NCBI GenBank assembly: GCA_007695285.1
Contig: REEC01000192.1
Span: 1 to 64,000 of the forward strand
DNA: 64,000 bases
From: Spirochaetaceae bacterium
GTDB taxonomy: Bacteria > Spirochaetota > Spirochaetia > DSM-27196 > PXBQ01
Direction: 5' to 3'
Part shown: positions 296 through 10,126 of the stretch, one piece after another
How positions within the stretch are numbered: position 1 is the stretch's first letter
How the letters are laid out: each line of letters begins with the position of its first letter
Translations under genes and position numbers: made by a program
Notes under the pieces: generated by a model
Database searches by the model: none
Told to the model about the DNA's origin: nothing
Seen by the model: the letters and a program-made list of their open reading frames with translations, nothing else

Positions 296-3200
296 ATGTT
301 GGGCCACGCAATCGTATTACTCGTCGTAGTGATACTTCTATCCGTGTATCGGCAGCTCGACAAGAACAACCGATCTCTTGAAAAAGTCAAACGATACGTC
401 GACAAGGCCGAAGGCGAGCTCGATCGGATCGTGCAAGACAAAGCCACGATGATCAAGGACATGGGCATCGAGCTCGAAGTCCACCAGCGCGCCGCGCGCG
501 AGATTCTCAAACGTTTACAGGCCGGCGAACAAGGGCTCAGCGAACGCGCCGAGGCGTTCGTGAGCGTATCGAAGAAGATCGACGAGTACGACCGGACGGT
601 AGATGAACTCGTTGAGATGACGCGTCGTGCCGAGGAAAACATCAACCGCGTTCGTGACGAGTCTGAATACGTCGACAAGGTGGGACGCCGGATCAAGGCG
701 GCTCAGGTGCGTATGGAAGAGCTCGAATCTCGCGTTCCGGCGATCGTACAGGCTTTTGAACTGTCCAACGAAGAAAAACTCACGAAGGTACGCGACACCG
801 CGCTGCTCCGCATCGACGAAAAAGCCGAGAGCCTCGCGGAACAGATCGGTAGCGCCGAGGCGCGCGTACACGAGTTTGAGAGTTTTGTGTCCGACCTCGA
901 GGATCGCGCCCGCGGTTTTGGCGACTCGACCGAATCCGATCTCCGCGAGTTATACGACCGGCTGCTCGAGCAGGCGACTGTCGACGCCGAACGAATCCGT
1001 GAAGAGTTCTCCTCAGAGGTGGCGCGGGCCGATCACAGCGTCGAGCTTTTCCGTGAGAATATCACGGGCGTCGAGCGGCAGTACGAGGAAAGACTCGAAG
1101 AACTTGCCGAAAAAGGACGGAGCTTTCAGACCGACGCGCTTGCCGGACTCAAAGAGACAATCACCTCCGAGGTCGAGAAGGCCCGCATGGAGCTCTCGGA
1201 CCGGATCGATTTTACGCGCGCGGAGCTCGAAACCGCTCGCGACTCGGTTCTAGAAGACTTCGAGAAATATCGGCTTGACGGCGTAGAGAATCTCAAGGAG
1301 ATCAAAGCCGATCTCGATGAGAAGGCCGACTCGCTAGAAAGCGCGTTGTACGAGCTCGAGCGAACGACCGAGGACCGGATCTCGCATGCCGAAAACGTCG
1401 GTCAGGAGCGCGCGTCGGAAGTCACGGCGGCGCTCGAGACGGAGTTGATCAAGCGAACCGATGAGGTTCGGATCGCGATGGACAAACGTGTAACCGAGTT
1501 GAACGAGTCCGCATCGGCGTCGCACGAACAAATCGACGGAATGTTCGAGGAACTGCGCAAACGCGTGGACGACTGGACGACACGGACGAACAACTACATC
1601 TCGGAACTCGAGGAACAAGTGCGGTCGCTGAACGAGTCGTCCTCCGAAGCGCACCGGCGGCACTGTGAGACGATCGATCGGCACATCGAAGAGACGCGCG
1701 CGCGGATCGACGAGTATGAAAGCGGCGTCGCGAATAGCATCGAAGAACTCAAGAAAAGGCTTGGAGAGACCGACGATACGGTTCGGCGCGAGTTTGATCG
1801 GATTTCGCACGATGTCGAGAGTGCGACCGAAGCCATGCAGCGCGAATTGGAGCAAGGTGTTGCGCAGGCGCGTGAAAGCTCCGCACGACGGCTCGATGAG
1901 TTTGCCGACGAGATCGCCAAGAACGTCGAGGCGATTCACGCGCACATTGTCGAAACGCGAACCGGACTCGAGAATCAGCTCGAAGAGGTGCACGCGGACG
2001 GGAAGCGTCTCGCTGAAGACACAAAGACCATTTTTGAAGAGCACGTTCGAGATGTCAAGGAAGGTGTCGATGCGGATAGCGGTCGCGTCTCGGAGATTCG
2101 GGCGGAGATAAACCAGAGAATAGCCGAACTCAACTCTGAGGTGACCAAAAACGTGGCGGACGTATCGTCGGCGATTCTCCGCCACCGCAACGAACTGAGC
2201 CGCGACCTCACGTCTGCGGTCGAAAACATCGAGAAGAACGTCGTTTCGTCGGTTGAGAAGCGCCTCGAAGAGTACGAGGACTCGGTGACGTACCGGTTTA
2301 CCCGGATCGAATCGGTCAATTCTGACCTCGATGACCTCGAGCGAAACCTGCGCGACTCGATGGATCGCGTGACCGCGCGCCTGCGCGAGGAATTCAATGC
2401 GTTTGGGCGTGAACTAGCCGAGCAGCGTTCGGCCGACAAATCCGAGGCGGACGGTCATTTGCGCGCGATCCGCGACGAGATGCAGAGCATCGAGACGGGG
2501 ATCGCGGAGCTGAAGCAGCGCGCGTACGACAACGTATCGGAGAAGCTCAAGGTGTTCGAGGACGAGTTCTTCACGGATCTGCGCGAACGGAGCGCGGGCA
2601 TGGAGTCGCGCGTCACTGAGTGGCAGACCGAGATTACCCGTCGTCTCGACGTGATCGGAGAAGAGGGAAACCGGAAGCGAACCGAACTCGAGTCGGCGTA
2701 CACGGAGGAGCTGCGCGGTTCTTTGTCCGAGTTGCAGGAGCGTGTCTCGCACCAGTTCGAGCGGTTTGAGTCGGGTGTCAAAGACCGGATCGGCGCGACC
2801 GAGACGACGATCCGCGATTTTGAAGGTTCTGCGCGGAACGACATAACCGAGATCGAAGAGCGAAATCGGCAAATTTTTGAGGACGAGTTCGGTCGCTACA
2901 CGCGCGCGATCGAAAACGAGTTCGAGACGTTCAGGTCGAACACACACGATCGCATCGATCGGCTCAAAGACGAGTTCGAGTCGACGATCTCGACGGTCGA
3001 CACGGCGATTTCATCGCAGCGCGACACGATGGACGCGATCTCGTTGAGCCTTGATACGTTGAGCTCGGATCTCGCGGAGAAGACTCGCGACGCGCTGTCG
3101 GACTTCACCCATCGTTACAATGATCTGAAAAATCAGATCGAGCGCGATGCTCACGATCTGATCGAAGAAGCGACCGGTGCATCGCGAGAGTTCAAGTCAT

Positions 3201-4210
3201 TCGTGACCGAGACGCGCGATAACTTCTCGACGATGCAAACGAGGGTGTTCGCGAAGCTGCACGATGAGACGAACGATCTCGCAGCGACGCTCAAAGAGAT
3301 AGACAAAAAGCAGCGCGCGTTTGCGGAACAGACAAAGATCTTCGAGCGCGCCGATACGCTCAAGATTTCCTTGACCGAGAATATCGAGGAGCTCAAGTCG
3401 TCGATCACGCGCGTCGAGAGCCAACGAGGTGAGATTCGGGAGATCGAGTCTCAGTTCGGCAAGATCCGCAAACTCGCGAGCGAAGCCGGGGACAAACTCG
3501 GGAAGTTCATGGCCGAGAAGCGCCGTATCGACGTGCTCGACGATGATTACAAGAAGCTTATGAGTCTCTCGCAGACGGTCGATCTGAAGCTCGAAACGCT
3601 CACGGCCAATCACGACGCGGTTCAAGCGATGCAGGCGCAGCTTCGGAATCTCGAGGAACTCGAGAAGGACGTCGAGAGTCGGTTCGAACGCCTCGAGAAG
3701 AAACGCGGCATAATCGACGTGACGACCGAAGGCGTGGACCGTAACTTCCAGGCGCTCGAAAACATCGAGTCGCGGCTGACCGAGATCTCGTCCGAGCTCG
3801 AAACGTTACCCGATCGTGTCGAAGAGCTCTCGACGCAGCTTCGGTCTATCGCGGCCGGGAAAAAAGAGGCCGACCAGGCGGCGCGGCAGCTCACGAATCT
3901 CGAAAAGACGCTCGGGAGCATCGAGCAGCGGATGGAGTCGCTCAACACCGCGCGCGAGTGGCTCGCGCGTACCGAGACGCGGCTCGAAGAGGTCCGACAG
4001 GAAGCCGAAGATCAAGTGAAGTTGCTCGGCACGATCCTGAAGGACGAAAACAAAGCCGCTCCGCGCCAGAAAGGCGCACCGTCGCTGTCCGCCCGCGATA
4101 CGGTCACGAAGCTCGCGCGGCAGGGTTGGAACGTCGATGAGATCTCGCGCGCGGTGAAGATCGGCCGCGGCGAGGTGGAACTCATACTCGAGATCAACTC
4201 CAAGAAGTAG
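296..4210 (+). CDS. Giant membrane-anchored coiled-coil protein (SpiroCoCo-like)
   Basis: 1304 aa, N-terminal TM helix (IVLLVVVILLSVY) followed by >1100 aa of charged heptad-like sequence and a short C-terminal HTH-like segment (LARQGWNVDEISRAVKIGRGEVELILEI). Confidence 0.85.
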   Translation: MLGHAIVLLVVVILLSVYRQLDKNNRSLEKVKRYVDKAEGELDRIVQDKATMIKDMGIELEVHQRAAREILKRLQAGEQGLSERAEAFVSVSKKIDEYDRTVDELVEMTRRAEENINRVRDESEYVDKVGRRIKAAQVRMEELESRVPAIVQAFELSNEEKLTKVRDTALLRIDEKAESLAEQIGSAEARVHEFESFVSDLEDRARGFGDSTESDLRELYDRLLEQATVDAERIREEFSSEVARADHSVELFRENITGVERQYEERLEELAEKGRSFQTDALAGLKETITSEVEKARMELSDRIDFTRAELETARDSVLEDFEKYRLDGVENLKEIKADLDEKADSLESALYELERTTEDRISHAENVGQERASEVTAALETELIKRTDEVRIAMDKRVTELNESASASHEQIDGMFEELRKRVDDWTTRTNNYISELEEQVRSLNESSSEAHRRHCETIDRHIEETRARIDEYESGVANSIEELKKRLGETDDTVRREFDRISHDVESATEAMQRELEQGVAQARESSARRLDEFADEIAKNVEAIHAHIVETRTGLENQLEEVHADGKRLAEDTKTIFEEHVRDVKEGVDADSGRVSEIRAEINQRIAELNSEVTKNVADVSSAILRHRNELSRDLTSAVENIEKNVVSSVEKRLEEYEDSVTYRFTRIESVNSDLDDLERNLRDSMDRVTARLREEFNAFGRELAEQRSADKSEADGHLRAIRDEMQSIETGIAELKQRAYDNVSEKLKVFEDEFFTDLRERSAGMESRVTEWQTEITRRLDVIGEEGNRKRTELESAYTEELRGSLSELQERVSHQFERFESGVKDRIGATETTIRDFEGSARNDITEIEERNRQIFEDEFGRYTRAIENEFETFRSNTHDRIDRLKDEFESTISTVDTAISSQRDTMDAISLSLDTLSSDLAEKTRDALSDFTHRYNDLKNQIERDAHDLIEEATGASREFKSFVTETRDNFSTMQTRVFAKLHDETNDLAATLKEIDKKQRAFAEQTKIFERADTLKISLTENIEELKSSITRVESQRGEIREIESQFGKIRKLASEAGDKLGKFMAEKRRIDVLDDDYKKLMSLSQTVDLKLETLTANHDAVQAMQAQLRNLEELEKDVESRFERLEKKRGIIDVTTEGVDRNFQALENIESRLTEISSELETLPDRVEELSTQLRSIAAGKKEADQAARQLTNLEKTLGSIEQRMESLNTAREWLARTETRLEEVRQEAEDQVKLLGTILKDENKAAPRQKGAPSLSARDTVTKLARQGWNVDEISRAVKIGRGEVELILEINSKK

Positions 4211-4265: not shown

Positions 4266-5648
4266 CTAGAACCGTGTCGTCCCGAACTGCGCGCCGAGCG
4301 AGACGCCGAAGCGTCCTGCCTGTGTGAACTCTCTGCGGTCCTCGCCGTACGCGACGTTTGTCGTCGCCGAGAGCGATAGCCCCGTGAAGAGCTCGCGCGA
4401 GACCGTCACACCGACGATCCCGGAACCGTCGGAAAAGTTTGCCTGAAGCAGCGCCGAGACGCCGATATCGGTGCCGAACACGTCGGTGTGACCCGCCGAG
4501 AGCGCGCCGTACCACCGGCCGGTCTGGGTGAGATCGTCGAGAGTCAAGGTCGGACCCGACGGCGCGAACGGCGCCCCCTCCTGCTGCAGGCCGAACGCGG
4601 GCCACAGCGACTCAAGAATCTTCGGATCATCGTACCCGTCACCGTTGTACAGGACTTGTCCGATGAGCGAGACGTCGTTTTTAACGTACCGCACACCGAT
4701 CGTGCCGTCGAAGTACGCGCCGTCGTCCCGGCGGAACGTCTCGGACCCTGAGTCCGCGAGGAACGTCCGTTCCGACCCGTAACGGAGGACCGCTTCGCCG
4801 AACGTATCGAGGTCGCGCCACGAGAAGCCGGCGGTCATGATCGCGCGCGGCGCGAGGTCTTGCTGCAGGAAGCCCGCGATTCCGATCTCGCCGGGGCCGA
4901 CGACGAACTCGAAGCGCGGCCCGATCGCGAGATCCTTGATCGAAGGATTCGGATTGTCGATGAGAGAGTCCGGCGCGACGAGGTAGAACGTGAATTGATG
5001 AATATCGATCGGTACACGAACGCGGATCGAGATCGGGCCTTCGCGGGTGCGCTCGGGGTCCTCGGGGTCGATCGGCGAGAGCGAGAGAACATCGGCGGGT
5101 GAGAAGAAGTAACCGGTGCCCCACGACACGGTTTGTTTTCCTGCGCGGAAAAACGCGTAATCACGCCACGCAAAGTCCGAGAAGAGCTCGAATATCGAGA
5201 TATTCGGGACGCGGATCGTCTTGGTCGTGACCTCGTCGGCGGCGAGAACACGCGTCGTCTGCGTGAACGGATACGCGGTCCGCGCGCTGCCGTATACGCG
5301 GAACTCTCGATTCGGCCTCGCGTCGAAGAATAACCTTCCGTCGATGCTTGCGGCGAGTGAATCCTCGCCGGCGTTTTTTACGGCGTCGAATGAATCGGGA
5401 TACTCGGCCCAGCGTACGATCGCGCGGAGCGACGAAGAGAATCGACCGCCGAACGTGATTCCCGTTTCGTCGAGAAAGGCGTCGGCATACTCTTGCTCAT
5501 CGGTGTCGTCGACCTCTTCGATCATGTCGTCGTCGAACATATCGTCAAAATCGAACGAAAATTCGTCGGCCGGCATCGATCGCGCGCCGAAGAACAGAAT
5601 CAGACAGAGAGCGAACACCGATCGTGCGGGCGCGTGTAGGCCTCTCAT
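4266..5648 (-). CDS. Predicted outer-membrane beta-barrel (porin-like) protein
   Basis: 460 aa, signal peptide, alternating amphipathic strands, C-terminal ...VSLGAQFGTTRF ending in Phe; start overlaps upstream stop (ATGA). Confidence 0.7.
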   Translation of the reverse strand: MRGLHAPARSVFALCLILFFGARSMPADEFSFDFDDMFDDDMIEEVDDTDEQEYADAFLDETGITFGGRFSSSLRAIVRWAEYPDSFDAVKNAGEDSLAASIDGRLFFDARPNREFRVYGSARTAYPFTQTTRVLAADEVTTKTIRVPNISIFELFSDFAWRDYAFFRAGKQTVSWGTGYFFSPADVLSLSPIDPEDPERTREGPISIRVRVPIDIHQFTFYLVAPDSLIDNPNPSIKDLAIGPRFEFVVGPGEIGIAGFLQQDLAPRAIMTAGFSWRDLDTFGEAVLRYGSERTFLADSGSETFRRDDGAYFDGTIGVRYVKNDVSLIGQVLYNGDGYDDPKILESLWPAFGLQQEGAPFAPSGPTLTLDDLTQTGRWYGALSAGHTDVFGTDIGVSALLQANFSDGSGIVGVTVSRELFTGLSLSATTNVAYGEDRREFTQAGRFGVSLGAQFGTTRF

Positions 5649-6430
5649 CGTGCTACCCTCTCGAGGTACGACCGCGTGAAGACGTTGTCGGGGATCGTCT
5701 GAGTCGATGCCTCGCTTACCGTGACCTGCGTCCGTTCACCTTCTGCGAGTTCATCGACTATGAGGATTTGCGAGGGAATCAAGCGGTTACCGACCGAGAT
5801 ATAACGTGGATAGACCGTCGTACGCATCAGGCGGTCGTTAACGCTGTAGTCTTCCTGTTTCAGCACGATGTTCTGGTCCTGTCGGACCCAGATCTTCATC
5901 TTCTCGTACGACACATCGCGGTGACGCGCTTCAAGGTCGAGCCTCCAGACGTCGAAGTTGCCGAGGCGTTCGGCCTGCCACGACACGACCCGGTAGTCTT
6001 CCGAAAGCGAGTTCTGCGAAAAGTCGCGATTTTGTGCGTTCGAGTCCTGAACGGTGTCACGGAGCGTCGTTCGTTCGAACCTGCGGCTGTCCGGGTCGTA
6101 GAACCAAACGTTGTCGTCGACCTGAAGGTAACCCTGGCCTCGGTTGACGGCGGGCTGAAGGATCAACAAGACGAACTGGTCCCGTCGATCGCGTCGGAAC
6201 AATCGTGCCTGAGTGACACTCCGGTCCTGGCCGGGCTTCTCCGCGACTATCGTGTAGACCGCCGAGAAATCCGTATCGTCGAAGTTTGAGAGCCTGTCGA
6301 TTTCGGCCAGAATCTTCTCGACGTCGGGCGTCTCGGCCGCGTAAGCCGCGGTTGCGACCAAAAACATAGAAAGCCACACAACGGCCTTCACTGCCGGTGT
6401 AACTATACATTTCTTCACACGTTTCTTCAC
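5645..6430 (-). CDS. Outer membrane lipoprotein-sorting (LolA-like, COG2834-type) protein
   Basis: Signal peptide after GTG start at 6430 (GGAGG upstream); WFYDPDSRRFERTTLRD..., Y/W-rich LolA-like beta sheet. ORF extension to 6952 is antisense to the upstream gene and not used. Confidence 0.7.
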   Translation of the reverse strand: MKKRVKKCIVTPAVKAVVWLSMFLVATAAYAAETPDVEKILAEIDRLSNFDDTDFSAVYTIVAEKPGQDRSVTQARLFRRDRRDQFVLLILQPAVNRGQGYLQVDDNVWFYDPDSRRFERTTLRDTVQDSNAQNRDFSQNSLSEDYRVVSWQAERLGNFDVWRLDLEARHRDVSYEKMKIWVRQDQNIVLKQEDYSVNDRLMRTTVYPRYISVGNRLIPSQILIVDELAEGERTQVTVSEASTQTIPDNVFTRSYLERVAR

Positions 6431-6456
6431 ATTAACCTCCAAATACTGTTCTGCGC

Positions 6457-7788
6457 TCACGCGCGTAGGGCGTCGACGGGTCTCATCCGCGCTGCCGTCC
6501 GAGTTGGGAAAAACGCCGCAAGCAACGTCAGGACCGAGACGGTCGCGATGTTTCCAATAACCTGTGCCGGGGGCACCGAGAAAGTCAGGTAACCATTCTT
6601 GAGCAAGAGAAAGAACTGCGAATCGGCGCCGAAGTTTATCGACGAGAGAACGAGCATCACAAGACCCGCGCCGACGAGTCCGAGGATAGCGCCACCGATC
6701 GCAAGGAACAACGCTTCGAGCAGGAACAATTGCCGCACTCCGGCGCGCTGCATCCCGAGCGCGCGCATAGTACCAATCTCCTTTACTCGTTCGTACATGA
6801 TCATGCGAAAAGTGTTCGTGATTCCGACCATGATAATAAAGAAAAGGATCAGAAGGATCACGAATCCGGCGGTGTTCAGGATCACGACGATTTGTTGGAC
6901 TTCCGAGAGAATCTCGTTCAACGTGTACAGTCTGATGCGCGACCCCTCCCACTGTTCTTCCTCGGCCTGGCTGAAGAGCGCCATGACGGGGTTTTGTGCC
7001 TCGGCCGTATCGTCGACCGAGGCGCGAGGGAACACATCGAGCCGCTGTTCGAGCTGCGCGAACAAAGCGGCGGCCGACGCATCGATGTACGAGAGGTCGT
7101 CGAGGAAGATCCCCATTGTCTGATACTCACCGGGATTGATCGTCAGGAGTTCGTTCACGTACTGCATGTCCGCGTACGACGAGATCGAGCCGACAAGGCC
7201 GGGATCGTAGCTGATCGCTCCGATGATGAAGTCACCGACGTTCTGTTGCCCGTCGATAGTGCTCATGCGGACTATTACCGTGTCGCCGAGCTCGGCGTTC
7301 AAACGGTCGGCGATTCGGTCGGTAACGATTATCGCGTTCGCCGGGTATGAATCGTTGATTCTTTCGATGTTCTCGAAACTACCGGCAGTGAGGATCAACC
7401 TTTCGCGCAGATACGTCTCGTCCGAAAAGTCGAGCCCGACGATGTTCTGTCGAACCGACCGACCCTGAAGGATTACCGCACCGTTGAACGCGGACCTCTT
7501 CGTTATGAACTGCGTCGGAATTTGCGCGGCCTCGATAGCCGAGGTAATTTCTTTATCGTCGCGGATAATTGACCGTTCGCGCCCGTCATCGGTCTTTTCT
7601 ACACCTGCGATGAAGATATGGCCGGCGAGCAGATGCGAGAAGTTCTCGCCGACGTTTCGGACAAAAGCGCCGGTGAAGCCGTTTATAACCGTAACGACGA
7701 GAATTCCGAACGCGATCGCACCGCCGAGTAGCACGGTTCTTTTTTTCTGGCGGTTGAGGTTTCTCATCGCCATGCGGATACTTCCCAT
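6457..7788 (-). CDS. ABC transporter permease, FtsX/LolC/MacB type
   Basis: MGSIRMAMRNLNRQKKRTVLLGGAIAFGILVV N-terminal TM, large extracytoplasmic domain, three C-terminal TMs with ERVKEIGTMRALGM. Confidence 0.85.
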   Translation of the reverse strand: MGSIRMAMRNLNRQKKRTVLLGGAIAFGILVVTVINGFTGAFVRNVGENFSHLLAGHIFIAGVEKTDDGRERSIIRDDKEITSAIEAAQIPTQFITKRSAFNGAVILQGRSVRQNIVGLDFSDETYLRERLILTAGSFENIERINDSYPANAIIVTDRIADRLNAELGDTVIVRMSTIDGQQNVGDFIIGAISYDPGLVGSISSYADMQYVNELLTINPGEYQTMGIFLDDLSYIDASAAALFAQLEQRLDVFPRASVDDTAEAQNPVMALFSQAEEEQWEGSRIRLYTLNEILSEVQQIVVILNTAGFVILLILFFIIMVGITNTFRMIMYERVKEIGTMRALGMQRAGVRQLFLLEALFLAIGGAILGLVGAGLVMLVLSSINFGADSQFFLLLKNGYLTFSVPPAQVIGNIATVSVLTLLAAFFPTRTAARMRPVDALRA

Positions 7789-7793
7789 TTCGA

Positions 7794-9359
7794 CTACTCC
7801 GTCTGAATGGCCTTGATCGGCTGAACCTTCAGCGCGACCGAGACCGGATACACGTGCGACAGAATCGCAATGCCCGTGACGATCAGGATCGAGAAAACAA
7901 CGGCGGTTATCGAGAGAACGGGCCGGAGAACAGGTCCCGCGAACAGTACCGTGAGAAACGGATTTGTCGCCGGTATGCCGATCATATTCAAGATACCGAT
8001 CGTCGCGAGCGACGCGGCGATTCCCACCGAACCGAATACCGTCGTGATCGTGACCGTCTCGGTGAAGAACATTCGCCACACGAACGATTTGTGCGCGCCA
8101 AGTGCGCGCATCGTGCCGATCTCCGACGTCCTTTCGATGACCGAAATCACGAGTGTGTTCATGATTATGATGACCGCGACGATTCCGACGATTATCACAG
8201 CCGCGTTGAAAACGGCACGAATCAAGTCGGCGGTCGTCGCAAAAGGTCCCGCGGCGGCTTCCCAGTTGCCCGCGTGCGCGGCGATCCCGTTCTCGGCGAA
8301 CCAGGCGTTCATCTCGGCCACGACTGCACGATCCGCGCGCGGATTGTCGAGGTAGGCAAGGATGAACTGCCACGGACCGGTGTCGGGCGCTGCTCCGGCT
8401 TCCGCCGGCTGCGAGGTGTCGAGCGACTCGATCCGGCCGGTTGTGGCCTCACTATCAGGCTCGGACTCCGGGGTCGTCGAGAACAAACGTTCAATTTCGT
8501 CGGACGTGAGCTCAAATGATTCGGGCGCGTCCTCGATGTCAAAGAAAAACGCATCGTCGAACGATGAGTCAAGCAGGGCGGTTTCTTCGGCGGTGGTTAC
8601 CGCGGTTCCCGTGATACCGACCGAGAGCCCTTCGAGCGCACGAAGAGTCTGCGCGTCGATGTACGAAATCAAGTCCGATCCGACGCCGTCGTTGATCGCC
8701 GTCGTTCGATACACCCCGATTAGCGGGACGATGCGGATGCGCGGCAGGCCGCCCATAAAGCCGCTCACGATTCGGACCGGCTCGTTCGGTTCGAGTGTGT
8801 ACTCCTCGAGGTCGAGCGCCTCGCGCGTAGATCTCTCGAGGCGCTGTACACGATCTTCGGAAATCATAACACCGCGTTCCCCGGACCGCATCAAGCGTCC
8901 GGATACGATCTCGATACTCTCAAACATATCAAAGTACGTGTCCGGATCGACGCCGAACAGCACCGAGAACTCGCCGCGTTCAAGACCTTCATACCCGGGG
9001 ATGTCGGGCCGCATGAGACCAAAACTCGACATCTGTGGGGTTGTTCGTCCGACCGCCGGAATTTCCTCAAGTCGATCGACGACCGCGCGGTACTCGGGAA
9101 GGGTGGGGGTACGATCGATACCGCCGATCGACTGGACACCGAACAGGGAAATATCGCCGTCGGCGACACCGGAGATAAAAATGTGGCCCGTGTAGTTGTC
9201 GACGAATGCCCGGCGGATTCCGAGCGACGCGGTCTCCATCAGCGAATTGCCGACGATCAAGACGAGCACACCGACCGCGACGATCGATCCGATGATCAAC
9301 GTCTTCCCTTTGTGTTGCCAAAGGTTGCGGAGCGCGATGCGTACGAGAACCGACATCAT
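7794..9359 (-). CDS. ABC transporter permease, FtsX/LolE/MacB type
   Basis: 521 aa, MMSVLVRIALRNLWQHKGKTLIIGSIVAVGVLVLIVG...ERTSEIGTMRALGA; 4-nt overlap with the ATPase gene. Confidence 0.85.
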   Translation of the reverse strand: MMSVLVRIALRNLWQHKGKTLIIGSIVAVGVLVLIVGNSLMETASLGIRRAFVDNYTGHIFISGVADGDISLFGVQSIGGIDRTPTLPEYRAVVDRLEEIPAVGRTTPQMSSFGLMRPDIPGYEGLERGEFSVLFGVDPDTYFDMFESIEIVSGRLMRSGERGVMISEDRVQRLERSTREALDLEEYTLEPNEPVRIVSGFMGGLPRIRIVPLIGVYRTTAINDGVGSDLISYIDAQTLRALEGLSVGITGTAVTTAEETALLDSSFDDAFFFDIEDAPESFELTSDEIERLFSTTPESEPDSEATTGRIESLDTSQPAEAGAAPDTGPWQFILAYLDNPRADRAVVAEMNAWFAENGIAAHAGNWEAAAGPFATTADLIRAVFNAAVIIVGIVAVIIIMNTLVISVIERTSEIGTMRALGAHKSFVWRMFFTETVTITTVFGSVGIAASLATIGILNMIGIPATNPFLTVLFAGPVLRPVLSITAVVFSILIVTGIAILSHVYPVSVALKVQPIKAIQTE

Positions 9360-10126
9360 ACGGTATTGGCCTCGGCTCGGTCGTTTTTTTTGTTTTCGAT
9401 GACCAGGCCGTCGTGTAGACGGATGACGTGATCGGCGATCTCGACGATCGCCGTATCGTGTGTCGAAAAAATGAATGTGGTTTCGAGCTCCCGGTTGATT
9501 TTCTTCATGAGTTCGATAATTGCTTCACCGGTCGTCGAGTCAAGGTTTGCCGTCGGCTCGTCGGCGAGAACGATCTGTGGTTTTGTCACGAGCGCGCGCG
9601 CGATCGCGACCCTCTGGCGTTGCCCCCCTGAGAGTTCGTTGGGACGGTGCTTTTTCCAGTCGGTCAGCCCAACCTCTTCGATTAGAAAGTTGATGTACTC
9701 GGCTTTCTCTTTCTTATCCGGCCGGGACTTTCCGAGCAGCAGCGGGAATTCGATGTTCTCATACACGTTCAGGACCGGGACCAGATTGAAGGACTGAAAA
9801 ATGAAACCGATCACGTCGTGACGCAGCGTTGTGATCGCCTTGTCGGAGAGTCCGGCCGTGTTCGTGCCGACGATTTCGACCGTGCCGGACGTCGGCACGT
9901 CGATGCAGCCGATCAGGTTCAAGATCGTCGACTTTCCGGAGCCCGACGGGCCCGCGATCGAGATGAAATCGCCACGTTCGATCGAGAACGACACGCCTTT
10001 TACGGCGTGGACTTCAGTTTTCCCCAACGGATAGATTTTGTGCGCGTCGGTCAGGCGGACGATCGCCTTCTCGACGTTGTCGGGCCTATCTGCGCCCGGG
10101 CTCTCTTCAGTCTTCGCTCTCACCAC
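9356..10126 (-). CDS. ABC transporter ATP-binding protein, LolD/MacB type
   Basis: Walker A GPSGSGKST, signature LSGGQRQRVAIARAL, Walker B IVLADEPTANLD. Start chosen at GTG 10126 with AAGGAG upstream; ORF can extend to 10147. Confidence 0.85.
   Translation of the reverse strand: MVRAKTEESPGADRPDNVEKAIVRLTDAHKIYPLGKTEVHAVKGVSFSIERGDFISIAGPSGSGKSTILNLIGCIDVPTSGTVEIVGTNTAGLSDKAITTLRHDVIGFIFQSFNLVPVLNVYENIEFPLLLGKSRPDKKEKAEYINFLIEEVGLTDWKKHRPNELSGGQRQRVAIARALVTKPQIVLADEPTANLDSTTGEAIIELMKKINRELETTFIFSTHDTAIVEIADHVIRLHDGLVIENKKNDRAEANTV

Follow-up and report, generated by a model that had tools for sequence, protein, structure and literature searches.

Organization of the operon

The window, a stretch of 64,000 nucleotides from a Spirochaetaceae bacterium, contains five genes on the minus strand that encode an ATPase, two FtsX-type permeases, a LolA-like carrier and a predicted outer-membrane barrel. 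The features of the operon are as follows.

9356..10126, minus strand: ATPase of a type VII (LolD/MacB-like) ABC transporter; GTG start; ABC_tran 115.6 bits
7794..9359, minus strand: FtsX1, FtsX-type permease of 521 aa; PF02687 55.5 bits
6457..7788, minus strand: FtsX2, FtsX-type permease of 443 aa; PF02687 62.1 bits, MacB_PCD 29.5 bits
5645..6430, minus strand: LolA_like, PF17131 LolA-fold soluble periplasmic carrier; GTG start with GGAGG upstream; PF17131 144.7 bits
4266..5648, minus strand: predicted outer-membrane beta-barrel of ~18 strands, probably a distant DUF1302 relative; AlphaFold2, Foldseek and profile comparison
5511..5546, minus strand: acidic Phe tail of the barrel, residues 35-46, DDMFDDDMIEEV; candidate docking motif
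9356..9359, minus strand: ATGA overlap of ATPase stop and FtsX1 start; read from the sequence
5645..5648, minus strand: ATGA overlap of carrier stop and barrel start; read from the sequence; 4 nt is the commonest spacing in relatives

The coordinates, the strand and the Pfam families agree with the preliminary description of five same-strand genes, and both of the ATGA overlaps that it mentioned are seen. The other two junctions are gaps of 5 nt (FtsX1/FtsX2) and 26 nt (FtsX2/carrier). The best NCBIfam model for the ATPase is LolD, at 227 bits, which is under the cut-off of 307.75. Against the lolCE model (cut-off 362), FtsX1 scores 37.7 bits, in its C-terminal part only, and FtsX2 scores 67.4 bits, with the best stretch again C-terminal. 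The carrier has a Sec-type signal and, as read from its sequence, lacks a lipobox cysteine. It is a member of PF17131 (Pfam cut-off 30 bits) and not of the LolA family PF03548, for which it reaches 14.2 bits, below the Pfam cut-off of 23.6 bits. The LolA-like fold was confirmed on a relative, and the closest solved relatives of the window carrier are 3buu (E 4.5e-22), 4z48 (DUF1329), 9tp6 (LolA3 of P. gingivalis) and 3bk5. A MacA-type adaptor or TolC is encoded neither by the five genes nor by the flanking open reading frames. The operon is convergent with a plus-strand gene (window positions 296-4210), the product of which is a coiled-coil protein of 1304 aa that has a membrane segment at its N-terminus; a similar protein occupies the same position at about seven related loci. 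GrpE is encoded upstream in about four related loci.

Fold of the barrel

The product of the last gene has no Pfam or NCBIfam match of its own, and Omp85 in particular is not matched in Pfam. Its AlphaFold2 model, calculated from 32 aligned sequences, has about 18 strands (pLDDT 84.1, pTM 0.77). A Foldseek search with this model gave 284 PDB matches at E<=0.001, and among the matches listed are porins, OccAB and AlgE. Nearly all relatives end in Phe, a residue common at the C-terminus of outer-membrane barrels. The protein is confidently modelled as a porin-like 18-strand barrel; the model and the porin-like matches speak against the possibility that it is not a barrel, and agree with the earlier prediction of one. 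DUF1302 is weakly matched in 10 of the 32 barrel relatives (best E 0.0026). Barrels of the ABC loci, compared with the RND-linked, DUF1302-positive barrels described below, gave a profile probability of 99.1 over 315 columns, in a comparison that had no unrelated-porin control. The kinship of the window barrel with DUF1302 appears to be distant and visible only by profile comparison.

Conservation and distribution

The order ATPase-FtsX1-FtsX2-LolA_like-barrel is complete in 61 of 103 distinct barrel loci. Another 32 are interrupted by contig ends, and 61 of the 71 uninterrupted loci have the complete order. Nine loci have room for further members and lack them (seven are without an adjacent ATPase only, and two contain the barrel alone). 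In the last locus, L119, FtsX2 and the carrier are a single 696-aa protein. In nearly all loci the spacing between carrier and barrel lies between -4 and +40 nt. Because the complete order is so frequent and this spacing so tight, the five-gene grouping is not due to chance, and the set is kept across spirochaetes. The fusion (L119:2700-4790) was seen in a single MAG only, and an error of assembly or sequence may be behind it; in such a protein the signal peptide of the carrier would serve as an extra membrane anchor. Similar fusions suspected in L142, L163 and L102 were rejected, the long open reading frames being overlapping frames.

The barrel is present in 120 of 296 Spirochaetota genomes (completeness setting 80%). 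Named loci, found in a genome scan with the closer barrel set A3 as query, belong to Spirochaetota, including Treponema, Sphaerochaeta, Rectinema and Gracilinema, and to several 'Bacillota' bins. The module is widespread across Spirochaetota and occurs in 'Bacillota' bins too. The bins labelled Bacillota, Firmicutes or Clostridia contain it at L111, L113, L127, L128, L150, L154, L157, L159, L170 and L171, and in the carrier tree the proteins from the 'Bacillota' bins fall among spirochaete carriers. If these bins represent diderm lineages, the module extends beyond spirochaetes; if not, the labels are wrong.

An OmpR-type response regulator is encoded directly after the barrel in about 18 loci of one subgroup (e.g. 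L114:10283-10987), which suggests that regulation there is by envelope signals. No such regulator adjoins the window operon. In about eight loci (e.g. L118:10539-12026) the gene directly after the barrel encodes a 495-aa protein that is predicted to be a lipoprotein and has no Pfam match. Neighbouring genes for an aminotransferase, an ODP-type metallo-beta-lactamase/flavodoxin protein, GrpE, CheX and OAD beta were considered as clues to the substrate and set aside as genomic context, not function. A Treponema pallidum locus, which we take to carry the tags TP0580-0584, was considered as a comparable system and was dropped, the literature search having yielded no paper that describes such a system.

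Related transporter sets

The same genome contains LolC/LolE-type genes flanking an ATPase (C142). The permeases of this set align with the lolCE model over its full length at 206 and 170 bits; these scores are also under the cut-off, yet far over those of the window permeases. A true LolA (PF03548) is encoded at C152. The preliminary description saw no LolB, and a family search found no LolB (PF03550) in the entire genome. There are additional, paralogous ABC sets, a second (C153 and C151) and a third (C23 and C27); as each is divided between contigs, their joining is presumptive. Another ABC set, C11, is accompanied by an HlyD-type adaptor. At L173:5740-10031 (C43), an ATPase and two FtsX permeases come after a protein of 382 aa that matches the barrel profile weakly, and no LolA-like gene is adjacent; this is possibly another pairing of an ABC transporter with a barrel.

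Two further sets in this genome consist of an MMPL pump, a PF17131 carrier and a barrel. The barrel at C92 (L053) matches DUF1302 at 40.8 bits and that at C267 (L056) is at the cut-off. Thirty PF17131 loci were classified, 13 of them behind an RND pump and 15 behind FtsX permeases, and a barrel match comes after the carrier in most of the 30. An interrupted locus with an RND-type carrier and barrel (L195) is the 14th of the RND kind, and L205, also interrupted, is the 16th FtsX locus. A tree of the carriers, obtained by a quick search and with long branches flagged, resolves three clans of carriers (RND, main ABC and second ABC) and shows a single change between ABC and RND. These relationships suggest that a single carrier-barrel half works with two engines that are unrelated, an ABC and an RND pump. 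The loci L196-L210 represent a second, divergent FtsX-PF17131 family, which is common in relatives and has a weak barrel match at about half of its loci.

The acidic tail and the carrier-barrel pair

Ahead of its first strand, after the signal peptide, the barrel has an acidic tail with a conserved Phe ('DDLF'). F38 is invariant in the 32 aligned barrels, which are otherwise 18-86% identical to the window barrel. The motif is found in 82 of 89 tails, against a mean of 25.4 and a maximum of 36 in 500 shuffles, a count that leaves out 14 of the 103 barrels that the script could not place. Most exceptions are near variants, such as EGSLFG, and one tail is truncated. The tail is nearly universal in the main ABC clan. 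RND-linked barrels are mostly without it, although short forms (LSFFEE, for instance) occur in a few; the barrels of the second ABC family have no Phe tail. An acidic, aromatic segment (DWDDDWDDNSNGEWNDSW) is likewise present at the N-terminus of the C267 barrel.

One relative, L058, has its carrier and barrel genes in the same reading frame; the two proteins can therefore be read as one chain, with the TAG taken as a residue. The alignment used (A4) contained 14 natural in-frame carrier-barrel pairs, counting the query, together with additional single rows. The model of this single chain, which is tethered, uses the relative's sequences and has no decoy pair beside it, reached a mean pLDDT of 87.4 and a pTM of 0.83. 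By rough arithmetic, independently placed domains joined by a 52-residue unordered linker would give a pTM of ~0.58, and a pTM of 0.83 requires an inter-domain error of ~3-4 Å. The linker, residues 230-259, has a pLDDT <50. For the tail motif FEDLFEQEEIVEEI the model shows a short helix at 262-266 and a strand at 271-274, with a pLDDT of ~65-72; the tail segment has a pLDDT <50 in the model of the window barrel alone. As judged by these scores, carrier and barrel are predicted to adopt a confident relative position in the one-chain model. Since they do so, the reading of the barrel as the outer-membrane partner of the carrier rests on more than gene position. The acidic Phe tail is proposed as a candidate docking motif for the carrier. 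Some residues that are scarce in the other clans, e.g. R80, D112, F118 and R203, are common to the carriers of the main ABC clan and are candidates for a docking face.

Comparison with known systems

No system composed of an FtsX-type ABC transporter, a PF17131 carrier and a DUF1302-type barrel is described in the literature searched, which lay mostly outside subscription journals, and the module departs from every known system compared in at least one component. AmeABCD and PP_0765/PP_0766/PP_2018/PP_2019 consist of an RND pump of the HAE3 type, a LolA-fold DUF1329 protein and a DUF1302 barrel (PMC6394551, PMC10866462). Castellaniella defragrans deleted for AmeABCD tolerates monoterpenes less well and accumulates more Nile Red (PMC6394551). 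In Pseudomonas putida, a complex of PP_0765 with PP_0766 is predicted; both are required on Tween 20 and are correlated with PP_2018/PP_2019 (PMC10866462). The window module shares with these systems an inner-membrane pump and a LolA-fold carrier, which stands beside a barrel of putative, distant DUF1302 kinship. The RND counterparts in this genome have the order pump-carrier-barrel, and their barrels are homologous to the window barrel. The AmeABCD-type pump is a proton-driven RND protein and its carrier is DUF1329, whereas the window module has an ABC transporter and a PF17131 carrier; Pfam finds no RND/MMPL pump in the window operon, the RND versions being at C92 and C267. AmeABCD also has an extra periplasmic protein, AmeC, and no acidic Phe tail has been reported for it.

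With LolCDE-LolA-LolB the module shares a type VII ABC transporter, two FtsX permeases and a LolA-fold carrier. It differs in that the carrier is PF17131, lolCE is matched mainly C-terminally, a barrel follows, and LolCDE-type genes and LolA are found separately. Borrelia BBJ23-29 is likewise a spirochaete combination of a (LolE-like) ABC transporter, a LolA-like protein and an outer-membrane barrel, and was proposed to serve a non-polar ligand; its barrel is of the Omp85 family, its one permease is modelled as a homodimer, and it has two TPR proteins (PMC13078400). The permeases and ATPase resemble the FtsX/MacB type of MacAB-TolC, but a soluble carrier and a porin-like barrel stand in place of the adaptor and TolC. 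The mycobacterial LprG-Rv1410 is not known to have a barrel. That system is alike in principle, an envelope lipid-carrier protein and a pump acting on triacylglycerides, and differs in its MFS pump and lipoprotein carrier (PMC10576003).

Possible functions of the module

Because LolCDE-type genes and LolA are found elsewhere in the genome, and because PF17131 carriers and homologous barrels stand behind RND/MMPL pumps, the module is probably the ABC-driven counterpart of the RND-LolA-fold-DUF1302 pathway of lipophile export, and the latter arrangement points to a lipophile or a lipid as the putative cargo. The proposal is built on the gene set, folds, conservation, tail motif, exchange of exporters and modelled carrier-barrel association that were obtained by computation; the natural FtsX2-carrier fusion in one MAG and the action of the RND versions on lipophiles were also counted in its favour. 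In the three-stage line that we infer, the ATP-driven pump, whose direction is assumed from its family, would pull an amphipathic molecule from the inner membrane. The acyl part would lie in the LolA-like cleft of the soluble PF17131 carrier, which would traverse the periplasm with it. The dedicated barrel would then catch the carrier at its periplasmic face, aided by the flexible acidic Phe tail, and the cargo would be let go into or through the outer membrane. Carrier and barrel would form the outer half, which an RND/MMPL pump would drive in the paralogous systems.

The preliminary description had seen here a candidate envelope-spanning export or sorting system. The predicted barrel, the gene order and the putative carrier-barrel partnership have found support, whereas lipoprotein sorting with the barrel in LolB's place has not, given the separate LolCDE-type genes and LolA, the PF17131 carrier and the RND-driven paralogues. 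Filing the module as a second Lol system was likewise rejected, because three defining Lol features were looked for and found missing: the LolD and lolCE scores are below their cut-offs, the carrier is not PF03548, and there is no LolB. A specialised route, in which the LolCDE-like pump and LolA-like carrier serve a subset of lipoproteins and the barrel is a LolB substitute or a surface exit, is unlikely. The type VII ABC transporter, the LolA fold, the missing LolB, the joint model and a comparable Omp85-barrel proposal for Borrelia BBJ23-29 (PMC13078400) agree with it, but the barrel occurs in only 120 of the 296 genomes, the same carrier and barrel families operate behind RND pumps, and the genome has its own LolCDE-type genes and LolA. 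Moreover, LolA3 of P. gingivalis (Bacteroidota), a protein of this fold, shows only a weak interaction with LolB (PMC13103446), and deletion of lolA3 in F. johnsoniae leaves gliding and amylase secretion unaffected (PMC11885536). It is rather doubtful that the module is a LolB-free exit, in which the Phe tail would capture a LolA-type carrier and the barrel would let acylated cargo, surface lipoproteins among it, pass through or into the spirochaete outer membrane.

We consider it improbable that the module serves efflux or defence as a MacB/Bce-like pump directed at membrane-active compounds (antimicrobial peptides, for example), the carrier and barrel being its periplasmic and outer-membrane parts. 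The MacB_PCD match of FtsX2, the OmpR-type regulator of the one subgroup and the role of AmeABCD as a tolerance system (PMC6394551) would fit such a pump, but the operon has no MacA-type adaptor or TolC, the HlyD-type adaptor of the genome belongs to the C11 set, and the regulator is absent beside the window operon. That an ABC transporter and an unrelated porin are neighbours by chance is most improbable. Ordinary porins are indeed what Foldseek lists for the barrel, but 61 of the 71 uninterrupted loci have the complete order, 4-nt overlaps occur, the carrier-barrel model is confident, and paralogous sets exist with a different pump.

Implications

For a specialist, the Phe tail and the exchange of engines would be new. 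The sharing of one outer half by ABC and RND pumps would unite proteins that are now labelled 'outer membrane lipoprotein-sorting protein' and 'DUF1302', names that are misleading for annotators. The module offers a defined carrier-barrel pair and a short conserved candidate docking motif that are directly testable, and with them a model of how acylated cargo may leave a LolA-type carrier where there is no LolB; it bears as well on the transport of lipids and lipoproteins to the spirochaete surface.
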